NCBI RefSeq assembly: GCF_002161065.1
Contig: NZ_NFLV01000003.1
Location: 124,001 to 188,000, forward strand
Direction of reading: 5' to 3'
Length of the DNA: 64,000 bases
From: Eubacterium sp. An11
Lineage (GTDB): Bacteria > Bacillota > Clostridia > Lachnospirales > Lachnospiraceae
Position 1 is the first letter of the stretch. Each line of letters opens with the position of its first letter. A program made the translations under genes and the position numbers. The notes under the pieces are model-generated. The model was not told the origin of the DNA and ran no database searches. It was given only the letters and a program-made list of their open reading frames with translations. Shown here one piece after another: positions 20,955 to 24,122 of this stretch.

Positions 20955-21043
20955 AAATAAAACTCTCTCCCTGTTTTGTCATTTTCTCACGCGTACTCTG
21001 TCACTTCACCGCAACGCAGTAATAGTGTGCCGACGCAATGACG

Positions 21044-21580: not shown

Positions 21581-22444
21581 TTACTCCTGAAGAATCCCTG
21601 AATTTTTGATCCATCCCGCCATAATGTTCTCCGGCTGCTCTGACATGACGGTAAATATGTAACCATCCTTCTCAAAGAAGATGGAATTGCTTATTCCGTC
21701 GGAGATGGAGTAAGCCTCAACGCCGTTCAGATCAATTGTCTGCCTGTATCCTTCTTCTTCATTGCACGTGATCGTCACCGTATATACCGATGCGTCATGC
21801 TGCATGAAATGTAAATTATTTTCGTCCTTATCCTGATACCACACGGTATACATCCTGCCTTCCGGCTCCTCCGTCTCATTCACCACGTGGTATCCTTCCG
21901 GTATCTTCTCCCATTTATAAGCGTGAAACGGCGCCTTCTCCTCTGTCTGTCCGCCGGTGCCGGCCCCGGCGCCAGTCTGGCTGCTGTCTCCCTGCAGTAT
22001 GCCGTTATCCGTTCCTCCGCTGTCGTTTCCCACACCAGCTGTTCCTCCGGCATCCTTTTTCCCTTCAATACTGACCCCGTTGGAACCAAATTCAATATTC
22101 AGCTTCCGGAGACCTTCCCGTACATCTTCACTGGCGAGGGCCGCCGCGGACGCCAGAGCCATCAAAAGCACCGCCGCCAGAGCATACCGGCCCCAGGACA
22201 ATACATGTCCGCTCTTTTTCTTTGTCCTGTACCGACTGAGGGACTCCAAAAAAGAGTCATCCCCCTCCCCACGGCCTTTCAGGGAAGTTCCCTGCAGTAC
22301 ATTCTGCATCTTCTGTCGAAACTGCGGTGAAAAACTGTAATGACAGTCCTGCATGTCTCCGTCCAGTTCTCTCATCTCTCTGCGCACCGCCATACCGACC
22401 GCTTCTCTTAAAAGATCTTCATTCCATGTCTCTGTTTTCCTCAT
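21581..22444 (-). CDS. Membrane-anchored anti-sigma factor with DUF4367 domain
   Basis: A 287-residue single-pass protein: cytosolic N-terminal part (1-83), one helix at about 84-104, an extracytoplasmic Gly/Ser/Thr/Asp-rich linker (about 131-168) and a DUF4367-like domain (about 175-287). This layout is typical of anti-sigma factors of clostridial ECF sigma factors: the N-terminal part holds the sigma, the outer domain senses. Its ATG overlaps the sigma gene stop by 4 nt. I do not see a zinc-binding ZAS motif (HxxxCxxC), so binding would be by another fold. Confidence 0.8.
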   Translation of the reverse strand: MRKTETWNEDLLREAVGMAVRREMRELDGDMQDCHYSFSPQFRQKMQNVLQGTSLKGRGEGDDSFLESLSRYRTKKKSGHVLSWGRYALAAVLLMALASAAALASEDVREGLRKLNIEFGSNGVSIEGKKDAGGTAGVGNDSGGTDNGILQGDSSQTGAGAGTGGQTEEKAPFHAYKWEKIPEGYHVVNETEEPEGRMYTVWYQDKDENNLHFMQHDASVYTVTITCNEEEGYRQTIDLNGVEAYSISDGISNSIFFEKDGYIFTVMSEQPENIMAGWIKNSGILQE

Positions 22445-22986
22445 GATAAATACCCCATTTCCTCCATTTTCTTTTTCAGCTGCTTTTTTGCCCTCCGTGA
22501 TACCTGCCTGACATGATCTGGTCTCAGTTTCAGCACATCGGCAATCTCCCTGCTTTTCATTTCATTGAAATACTGAAGATACAGCACTTCCTTATAAGGG
22601 TATCTCAGCTGACCGATCAGGGCAGCGAGGGCCTCTTTTTGTTCCTGTCCGATGCATTCTTCTTCCAGCCCCTTCTCTTCCACTGCCCAGATATCGTCCT
22701 CCCTGCAGTAAGAAACCATCCGATCCTGCTTCTTCATCCAGTTAAAACAATGATGTTTCAATGCCGTAAGTACATAATTCCACGTCTGACGGCTCCCCGC
22801 ATCCGACAGTTTATCCAGATGTCCCATCAGAGATAAAAAAGTCTCATGCACCATATCTTCCGCGGCGGCACTATCGTCCACAATCCGAACGGCCGCCAGA
22901 TACATTTTCTTCGCATACATTTCATACAGTGTCTGAAACGCCGTCTTCTCCTGCGGCGTATCCAGTAATTCCAGGTAAGCAATCAT
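22441..22986 (-). CDS. ECF-type RNA polymerase sigma factor
   Basis: A 181-residue sigma factor with region 2 (about 14-80, 'AEDMVHETFLSLMGHLDKL') and region 4 (about 118-175, 'YPYKEVLYLQYFNEMKSREI' then 'ADVLKLRPDHVRQVSRRAKK'). The start at 22986 follows GAGGAG at 10 nt; the in-frame ATG three codons earlier is too close to that site. It overlaps the anti-sigma gene. A motif 127 nt upstream is repeated ahead of the VanZ-like gene, pointing to self-activation and a small regulon. Confidence 0.9.
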   Translation of the reverse strand: MIAYLELLDTPQEKTAFQTLYEMYAKKMYLAAVRIVDDSAAAEDMVHETFLSLMGHLDKLSDAGSRQTWNYVLTALKHHCFNWMKKQDRMVSYCREDDIWAVEEKGLEEECIGQEQKEALAALIGQLRYPYKEVLYLQYFNEMKSREIADVLKLRPDHVRQVSRRAKKQLKKKMEEMGYLS

Positions 22987-23083
22987 TGCTGTCATTCTCC
23001 TCTTTTTCTTGTAACTTTTTTCATATGAGTTTTTATCAAAACCATCTTTGTGGAAAACAGCGCTTCGCAGGCCTGCTTTTCTG

Positions 23084-23127
23084 ACTGTTTTCATATATGA
23101 AACAAACCAGTGGCACGTTTTGTGACA
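23084..23127 (-). promoter_or_regulatory. Putative sigma-dependent promoter, copy 1 (sigma gene)
   Basis: On the minus strand TGTCACAAAACGTGC (rc of 23113-23127) is followed after 10 nt by TTTC and then ATATG. The same parts occur at identical spacing ahead of the VanZ-like gene (23843-23885). This copy is about 100-130 nt before the sigma ATG. Confidence 0.65.
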
Positions 23128-23172
23128 AAAAAATAGTAAAACAGGGACAAAGTTCCTGAAACTTCGTCCCTG
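23128..23172 (-). terminator. Terminator of the VanZ-like gene
   Basis: CAGGGAC and GTCCCTG (23142-23148 and 23166-23172) enclose a further AAGTT/AACTT pair, making a stem of about 12 bp with one mismatch. On the minus strand it is followed by TTTTACTATTTTTTT. It starts 14 nt after the VanZ-like stop, just ahead of the sigma promoter motif. Confidence 0.85.
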
Positions 23173-23185
23173 TTCAAAAATTTTT

Positions 23186-23731
23186 CTATTCTTTATGAGA
23201 AGTATTGTTTTCCTTCGCATATCTCCCCAGCCACGCATAGGAGAGCAGACCGCCAATCACATACAAGATCACGTCATCAATATCAACGCTTCGGTACAGA
23301 TACCCAAGGCACAGACTCACCACGGCCTGCATTCCTTCCGCCATGACAGCAAAAATCAAAAGCCATATCACGTATGTGCGGAAACTATATAAGTGCATAT
23401 ACCACCCCAGTACACTCATAAAAAAGAAAAACAAAAGAACATTTCCCAAAATCTGAGAAAGCGCTGTTCCGACCATACCGTCTCTTACCGCCGAAATGAT
23501 ATAGCCTGCTATGGTCTTAAAAGGAATGATATTTACACTGGCAAATCCCGCCTCTTCCTGCGACAACGGCAGAGGAAAAAGCAATACAGTCAAAAAAATA
23601 ATAAAGGTGACTGCTGCTGCCAGAAATTTTAAGATTTCCGCCACATCCCATTTAAAATGTCTGGTCAGCGCCATTGTCAGACATATTGTCAATATAGAAA
23701 AAAACAAAATACTAAAAACAAAATTTAACAT
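23186..23731 (-). CDS. VanZ-like membrane protein
   Basis: A 181-residue VanZ-family protein with about five membrane helices. The family signature is seen in 'NIIPFKTIAGYI', 'GNVLLFFFFMSVLGW' and 'YRSVDIDDVILYVIGGLLSY'. In VanA-type enterococci VanZ lowers teicoplanin susceptibility; most chromosomal homologues have no defined role but are linked to the cell envelope. GGAG lies 8 nt before the ATG. It shares a promoter-like motif with the downstream ECF sigma gene, so it is a candidate envelope-stress regulon member. Confidence 0.85.
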   Translation of the reverse strand: MLNFVFSILFFSILTICLTMALTRHFKWDVAEILKFLAAAVTFIIFLTVLLFPLPLSQEEAGFASVNIIPFKTIAGYIISAVRDGMVGTALSQILGNVLLFFFFMSVLGWYMHLYSFRTYVIWLLIFAVMAEGMQAVVSLCLGYLYRSVDIDDVILYVIGGLLSYAWLGRYAKENNTSHKE

Positions 23732-23842
23732 GATTTTTTCTCCATAAAGTAAATACTTTCTTTTTATCTATGATTTATATGATTACCAGTTCCTTTTTTA
23801 TGTGTTCAGTGTACCATATCTCTGTCTTATTGTACATACATG

Positions 23843-23885
23843 TTCCATACATATTAGAAACCTTTTTGAAGCACGTTCTGTGACA
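23843..23885 (-). promoter_or_regulatory. Putative sigma-dependent promoter, copy 2 (VanZ-like gene)
   Basis: TGTCACAGAACGTGC (rc of 23871-23885) differs from copy 1 at a single base, and TTTC plus ATATG follow at the same distances. The rest of the spacer is unrelated, so this is shared function rather than a simple duplication. It ends about 110 nt before the VanZ-like ATG. Confidence 0.65.
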
Positions 23886-24042: not shown

Positions 24043-24122
24043 CATTGCAGCCAAATAGTCCGCTGCCCCTGTGCAGCTTTTACATTGCAGCCAAATAATC
24101 TGCTGCTTTTTTGCAGCTTTTG
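24043..24122 (+). repeat. Two-copy 40-bp tandem repeat in the rqcH leader
   Basis: Two direct copies of exactly 40 bp (24043-24082 and 24083-24122) both begin CATTGCAGCCAAATA and end GCAGCTTTT. Each contains a small stem GCTGC-N5/6-GCAGC followed by TTTT, like a weak terminator. The second copy abuts the rqcH ribosome site. Confidence 0.85.

Follow-up and report, generated by a model that had tools for sequence, protein, structure and literature searches.

What does a motif that stands ahead of both an ECF sigma factor gene and a VanZ-like gene tell about the control of the two genes? The original prediction took it to be a promoter read by the locus's own sigma factor. We investigated this in the 64-kb stretch of DNA that carries the locus (the window, 64,000 nucleotides), in the rest of the genome and in relatives.

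An ECF sigma locus with two copies of one motif

On the minus strand, the VanZ-like gene is followed by a terminator-like hairpin, the promoter of the sigma operon, the ECF sigma gene, a DUF4367 gene, a gene for a bacterial PH-domain protein, and a gene that we take, by eye, to be hisZ-like. The sigma factor (22441..22986, minus strand) matches Pfam above cut-off in regions 2 and 4 only (PF04542 and PF08281), the domain content of an ECF sigma factor, and its family profile found SigW as the best match among solved structures (E 4.6e-20). SigW is an autoregulated sigma factor of Bacillus subtilis. The DUF4367 gene (21581..22444, minus strand; PF14285) shares 4 nt with the sigma gene, and its product has a hydrophobic stretch recognised by eye. 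With DUF4367 neighbours present in relatives as well, it is a putative membrane anti-sigma gene. A profile search of solved structures with its protein gave a best match of only E 0.038, and our literature search found no paper joining DUF4367 with a sigma factor.

The VanZ-like membrane protein gene (23186..23731, minus strand) scored 51.7 bits against the VanZ profile PF04892, whose cut-off is 30.1 (E 1.8e-13), and has an orthologue in Eubacteriaceae bacterium CHKCI004. An excerpt of PMC12419801 gives DxDDxxxN in helix 4 as the motif of VanZ-1 in the lipocone superfamily; here DxDD is present and the N is replaced by Y (DIDDVILY, and DIDDMILY in CHKCI004). Between the VanZ-like gene and the sigma promoter lies an intrinsic terminator-like hairpin (23175-23139) with its T tail (23129..23175 in all, minus strand). 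A 17-nt half of this terminator is found again, with 2 mismatches, at 20959-20975, between the PH-domain and hisZ-like genes. On the other side of the locus, an imperfect 39-nt tandem duplication (24043-24121) lies just upstream of a divergent gene, presumably NFACT-like.

The two copies of the motif were found as claimed, as exact 36-nt matches on the minus strand, with no third in the window. The sigma-operon promoter (23092..23127) consists of a predicted −35 element TGTCAC (23127-23122), an 18-nt spacer and a predicted −10 element GTTTC (23103-23099), with a T-tract directly upstream. The VanZ promoter (23850..23885) has the same −35 (23885-23880), spacing and GTTTC (23861-23857), without an upstream A/T tract. 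From the 5′ end of the motif to the likely start codon we computed 141 nt for sigma (ATG 22986, picked because homologues start MIxYLxxL) and 154 nt for VanZ (ATG 23731), close to the 130-150 nt that had been given.

The full two-part pattern was absent from 100 dinucleotide shuffles, and the reduced core TGTC[A/C]C-N17/18-GTT[T/A] matched only the same two sites on both strands of the window. Across the 3.9-Mb genome, the 15-mer TGTCACANAACGTGC had two exact matches, both of them the window sites. With up to 2 mismatches it had 19 matches including the two sites, against 13 for a reversed-pattern control; the other 17 thus look like background, and we rejected a wider use of the 15-mer. The pattern TGTCACN{16,18}GTTTCNNAT again found the two window sites and nothing else in the genome (reversed control, 0), while a looser form added two GTTTC matches (C19:32644 and C43:5442), both within predicted ORFs. 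With this stricter pattern, the genome-wide search that had been proposed as a check pairs only the sigma and VanZ sites. Elsewhere, TGTCAC-N16..18-GTTTC-N2-AT was found at the sigma promoter and one other place in CHKCI004 and once in genome G022, with no match in three further genomes searched.

The predicted promoter element defined by comparison

Regions upstream of sigma homologues were collected from 41 genomes and a family sample of 397. Of 61 input loci, the count took in 44 distinct upstreams that had a tblastn match, one of them (L027) without upstream sequence; weak homologues were sampled, more sigma matches being listed than loci taken. The core TGTC[A/C]C-N17/18-GTT[T/A] was present in all nine of the nearest sigma upstreams (the window's own and eight others) and in none of the nine on the antisense strand, the pattern and the group limit (nearest nine, at least 162 bits) having been chosen with the sequences in view. 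The stricter TGTCAC form occurred in 8/9, compared with a mean of 0.017/9 over 1000 rounds of dinucleotide shuffles; the ninth reads TGTCCC. The core was found in one (L094) of 35 more distant upstreams. The next homologues, at 154 bits or less and 41-43% identical, lack it, so that the limit separating the near group from the distant one (162 vs 154 bits) falls where the motif ends and was set with the result in view.

In 14 lined-up sites, a table that omits two sites of the same form (C62:2992 of this genome, with GTTTA, and the distant sigma L094), the spacer between TGTC[A/C]C and GTT[T/A] was always 17 or 18 nt, and an A/T tract directly preceded the −35 in all except the VanZ site (13/14). 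The −10 element reads GTTTC at all three sites of this sigma clade, namely its own promoter, that of the CHKCI004 orthologue and the VanZ site. None of the 11 other sites has GTTTC; they read GTTTA (7), GTTAT (3) or GTTAC (1). AAC and CGT are named as boxes in the original ECF definition, as quoted in the consulted part of PMC8103513. These canonical boxes are absent from the two window sites, where the −35 has CAC and the −10s read TGTT and GGTT; CGTT occurs at 8/14 lined-up sites, the CHKCI004 orthologue included. PMC3397946 was rejected as a source linking TGTCAC with ECF promoters, the hexamer occurring only in a primer in the text available from it.

Alignment with the CHKCI004 sigma promoter left TGTCACAAAACG and GTTTCATATATGAAA invariant and the intervening spacer diverged; blocks of the downstream leader, such as GCAGGCCTGCGAA, were also kept. 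Because of this alignment and the nine nearest upstreams, we assign the predicted −35 to TGTCAC(A) and the predicted −10, 18 nt away, to GTTTC, followed by an A/T-rich stretch. Most of the common AACGTGC then belongs to the predicted spacer. The original prediction was thus right about a two-part element, of which its TTTC forms part of the −10, and wrong in treating the 15-mer as a whole unit: the orthologous promoter does not keep GTGC, and we rejected the 15-mer as a single binding unit. By our own arithmetic, the identity of AACGTGC at both window sites has a chance of about 6e-5 in fixed register, more than coincidence would give, and it probably reflects common descent.

Two further features of the leaders were inspected. 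A perfect palindrome, TTTCATATATGAAA, covers the sigma −10 within 23060-23105, with GCAGGCCTGC downstream, and is kept in two genomes. A search for riboswitches or structured leaders gave no Rfam match at gathering score, and leader RNA folding energies were ordinary (z −0.06, −0.49 and 1.03).

The VanZ-like gene as a candidate target of the local sigma factor

A clue to a VanZ link came from CHKCI004 (G020), which is named among chicken-ceca isolates in the consulted section of PMC4882955. There the locus runs from a terminator copy and the promoter through sigma, anti-sigma and VanZ to a terminator and the PH gene. VanZ comes third in the operon, after sigma and anti-sigma, and no separate copy of the promoter precedes it. 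Between the window and CHKCI004, identity is 80% for the VanZ proteins and 64% for the anti-sigma proteins. The record of the CHKCI004 sigma gene (L038, G020:C52) has a frame change at about 2904-2916, from sequencing error or decay.

Among the 23 other genomes of the genus that were searched, CHKCI004 alone yielded a close VanZ orthologue; in the set of 24, 11 genomes reach 90% completeness or more with no more than 5% contamination. The VanZ link therefore rests on two genomes. The other 22 contained no VanZ relative above 31% identity. Matches at E 1e-10 or better were present in 5/396 other genomes of the family sample, at 27-38% identity, and no sigma gene was seen among the neighbouring ORFs of these distant relatives, judged by eye from the printed starts. 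An expectation that the motif should precede the orthologous genes in relatives was borne out for sigma; it could not be tested literally for VanZ, whose orthologue lies inside the CHKCI004 operon. Since the two share GTTTC and VanZ lies within the CHKCI004 sigma operon, it is very probable that the local sigma factor also transcribes VanZ. The promoter reading of the original prediction is supported by this gene order together with the core in nine upstreams and the CHKCI004 alignment.

Other sites of the class were searched with a relaxed pattern, which gave 19 matches against 4 for the control in this genome (G000) and 12 against 8 in CHKCI004. A locus was available for 30 matches, and in 11 of these (7 in this genome and 4 in CHKCI004) a gene starts no more than 210 nt downstream, the sites of this sigma, of VanZ and of contig C61 being counted by known start codons because mechanical ORFs misplace them. 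Among the rest, 17 fall wholly or partly inside an ORF of at least 80 aa and 2 lie between ORFs with no gene after. In each of the two genomes, one site (G000 C28:56169; G020 C60:152958) precedes the gene for a small secreted or membrane protein; the two proteins are homologous, with 51% identity, and neither (L137 2061-2492, L138 3008-3442) had a Pfam match above cut-off. Another site precedes an LRR-type secreted protein, judged by its start, on CHKCI004 contig C72, and the GTTTA site at C62:2992 lies 90 nt before a gene for a DeoR-like regulator, also judged by its start. As the sites outside the sigma modules carry GTTTA, they probably belong to paralogues. GTTTC with a loosened −35 yielded the two window sites and one more in this genome, and the sigma operon and one more in CHKCI004, against one control match in all. 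No further target of this sigma ahead of a gene was found in these two genomes.

The explanation that we hold with considerable confidence is that both sites are ECF promoters of one class, that the local sigma factor reads its own operon and VanZ, and that the DUF4367 protein restrains it until an envelope signal arrives. As long as the cell is at rest, the DUF4367 protein in the membrane would hold the sigma factor. An envelope signal would release sigma, which would then transcribe VanZ from the second site and, by positive autoregulation, its own gene and the anti-sigma gene from the first, so that the three products would rise together. Sigma binding, the anti-sigma role, the signal and the part played by VanZ are proposed here from sequence.

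A paralogous sigma factor, encoded on contig C39 or C1, might instead read the sites, alone or through cross-talk. The paralogues are 46-48% identical to the local sigma factor, and their own promoters have the same −35 and nearly the same spacing. However, their −10 is GTTTA, whereas the sigma site and its CHKCI004 orthologue have GTTTC, which makes such a reader unlikely; we infer that the local sigma factor is the one that reads both sites. More improbable still is that the 15-mer is an operator through which another regulator controls both genes, their promoters being ordinary. AACGTGC, identical after the −35 at both sites, does exceed what this ECF promoter class needs, and the palindrome over the sigma −10 is perfect in both genomes. 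Yet GTGC is absent from the orthologous promoter and from the 11 other sites, the VanZ site does not keep the palindrome intact, and neither site coincides on the minus strand with any part of a sigma-70-like promoter. That the resemblance arose by chance is barely conceivable: although the window has just two sites and the loose pattern is common in both genomes, the shuffles, the genome-wide pairing, the frequency of core and strict form in the nine upstreams and the conservation in CHKCI004 all speak against it.

Apparently split operons and known systems

On the basis of the CHKCI004 operon, the window order (promoter, VanZ, terminator, promoter, sigma, anti-sigma) has the appearance of that operon divided in two, each half having kept a promoter. 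The 33-nt terminator hairpin, allowing up to 3 mismatches, occurs in one place in the window's genome (both strands) and in two in CHKCI004, where the copies flank the promoter-sigma-anti-sigma-VanZ block and are identical over 41 nt. The full hairpin being found at this locus only in the two genomes, we rejected it as a dispersed repeat. Tandem duplication followed by different losses could give both gene orders. The window order would follow if sigma and anti-sigma were lost from the left copy and VanZ from the right one; the CHKCI004 order would follow if the left copy lost all except its terminator, and the duplicate terminator there fits such a course. The perfect identity of the two CHKCI004 copies could be a later event. 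Homology of the VanZ leader to the CHKCI004 anti-sigma/VanZ spacer, which would mark the deletion point, was rejected as weak (69/300 shuffles as good in local alignment, 5/500 in global).

A second module presented a similar picture. Contig C61 of CHKCI004 carries promoter-sigma-anti-sigma-LRR protein between two genes that we take from their sequences to be spoIIIAH and nusB. In G022, promoter-sigma-anti-sigma lies beside the same presumed spoIIIAH, on a contig (C32) that ends before nusB. At the same place in the window's genome (C39; L134, 2450-6795), the order is promoter-anti-sigma-LRR protein-LRR protein-promoter-sigma. Both C39 promoters are of the same class, C39 and C61 share 78% identity in their anti-sigma proteins, and the relatedness of the two C39 LRR genes shows in 69% nucleotide identity over 841 nt. 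The third module of the genome, on C1, has the usual gene order. Two modules of this genome are thus split, with a promoter on each piece.

A scar of a lost sigma gene before the C39 anti-sigma gene is suggestive only. Compared with the end of the C61 sigma gene, the putative relic was equalled by 4/1000 shuffles with the ribosome-binding region kept and by 265/1000 without it; compared with the end of C39's own sigma gene, by 97/1000; and at the protein level, with the frame picked by eye, by 22/1000. At a further locus (L039, G005:C1, 3186-5899), transposase-like genes divide the anti-sigma frame in two, an insert that by eye we presume to be of IS200/IS605 type. Whether autoregulated sigma/anti-sigma/cargo operons of this lineage came apart more than once through tandem duplication with complementary loss, each piece keeping a promoter copy and the cargo coming to lie before sigma under unchanged sigma control, is a proposal on which we are evenly divided. 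Our literature search found no paper joining tandem duplication and random loss with a bacterial operon and its promoter.

The locus resembles SigW-type operons in its sigma2 and sigma4 regions, its overlapping downstream membrane-protein gene and the two-part promoter before sigma; it differs in the TGTCAC −35, the GTTTC −10 and a putative anti-sigma with DUF4367. The available part of PMC6767563 counts sco4904, which encodes a VanZ-family membrane protein, among the sigma-E regulon genes of Streptomyces coelicolor and lists it with an ECF promoter. By analogy, this offers a precedent for a VanZ gene under an ECF sigma factor, although in another phylum and with another promoter sequence. VanZ orthologues are also described outside van clusters, including in Clostridium, in the section consulted of PMC7146870. 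The present locus has the Pfam VanZ domain in common with glycopeptide-resistance clusters but no van gene among three other Pfam-scanned neighbours.

The kind of system is therefore known; what is new is the predicted promoter family, the candidate VanZ target in this lineage and the apparent repeated splitting of the operon. With these, a little-described group of envelope-type sigma factors partnered with DUF4367 gains a concrete promoter and its first candidate targets, a VanZ-like protein included, and the locus would offer a natural example of an operon dismantled with its regulation retained.
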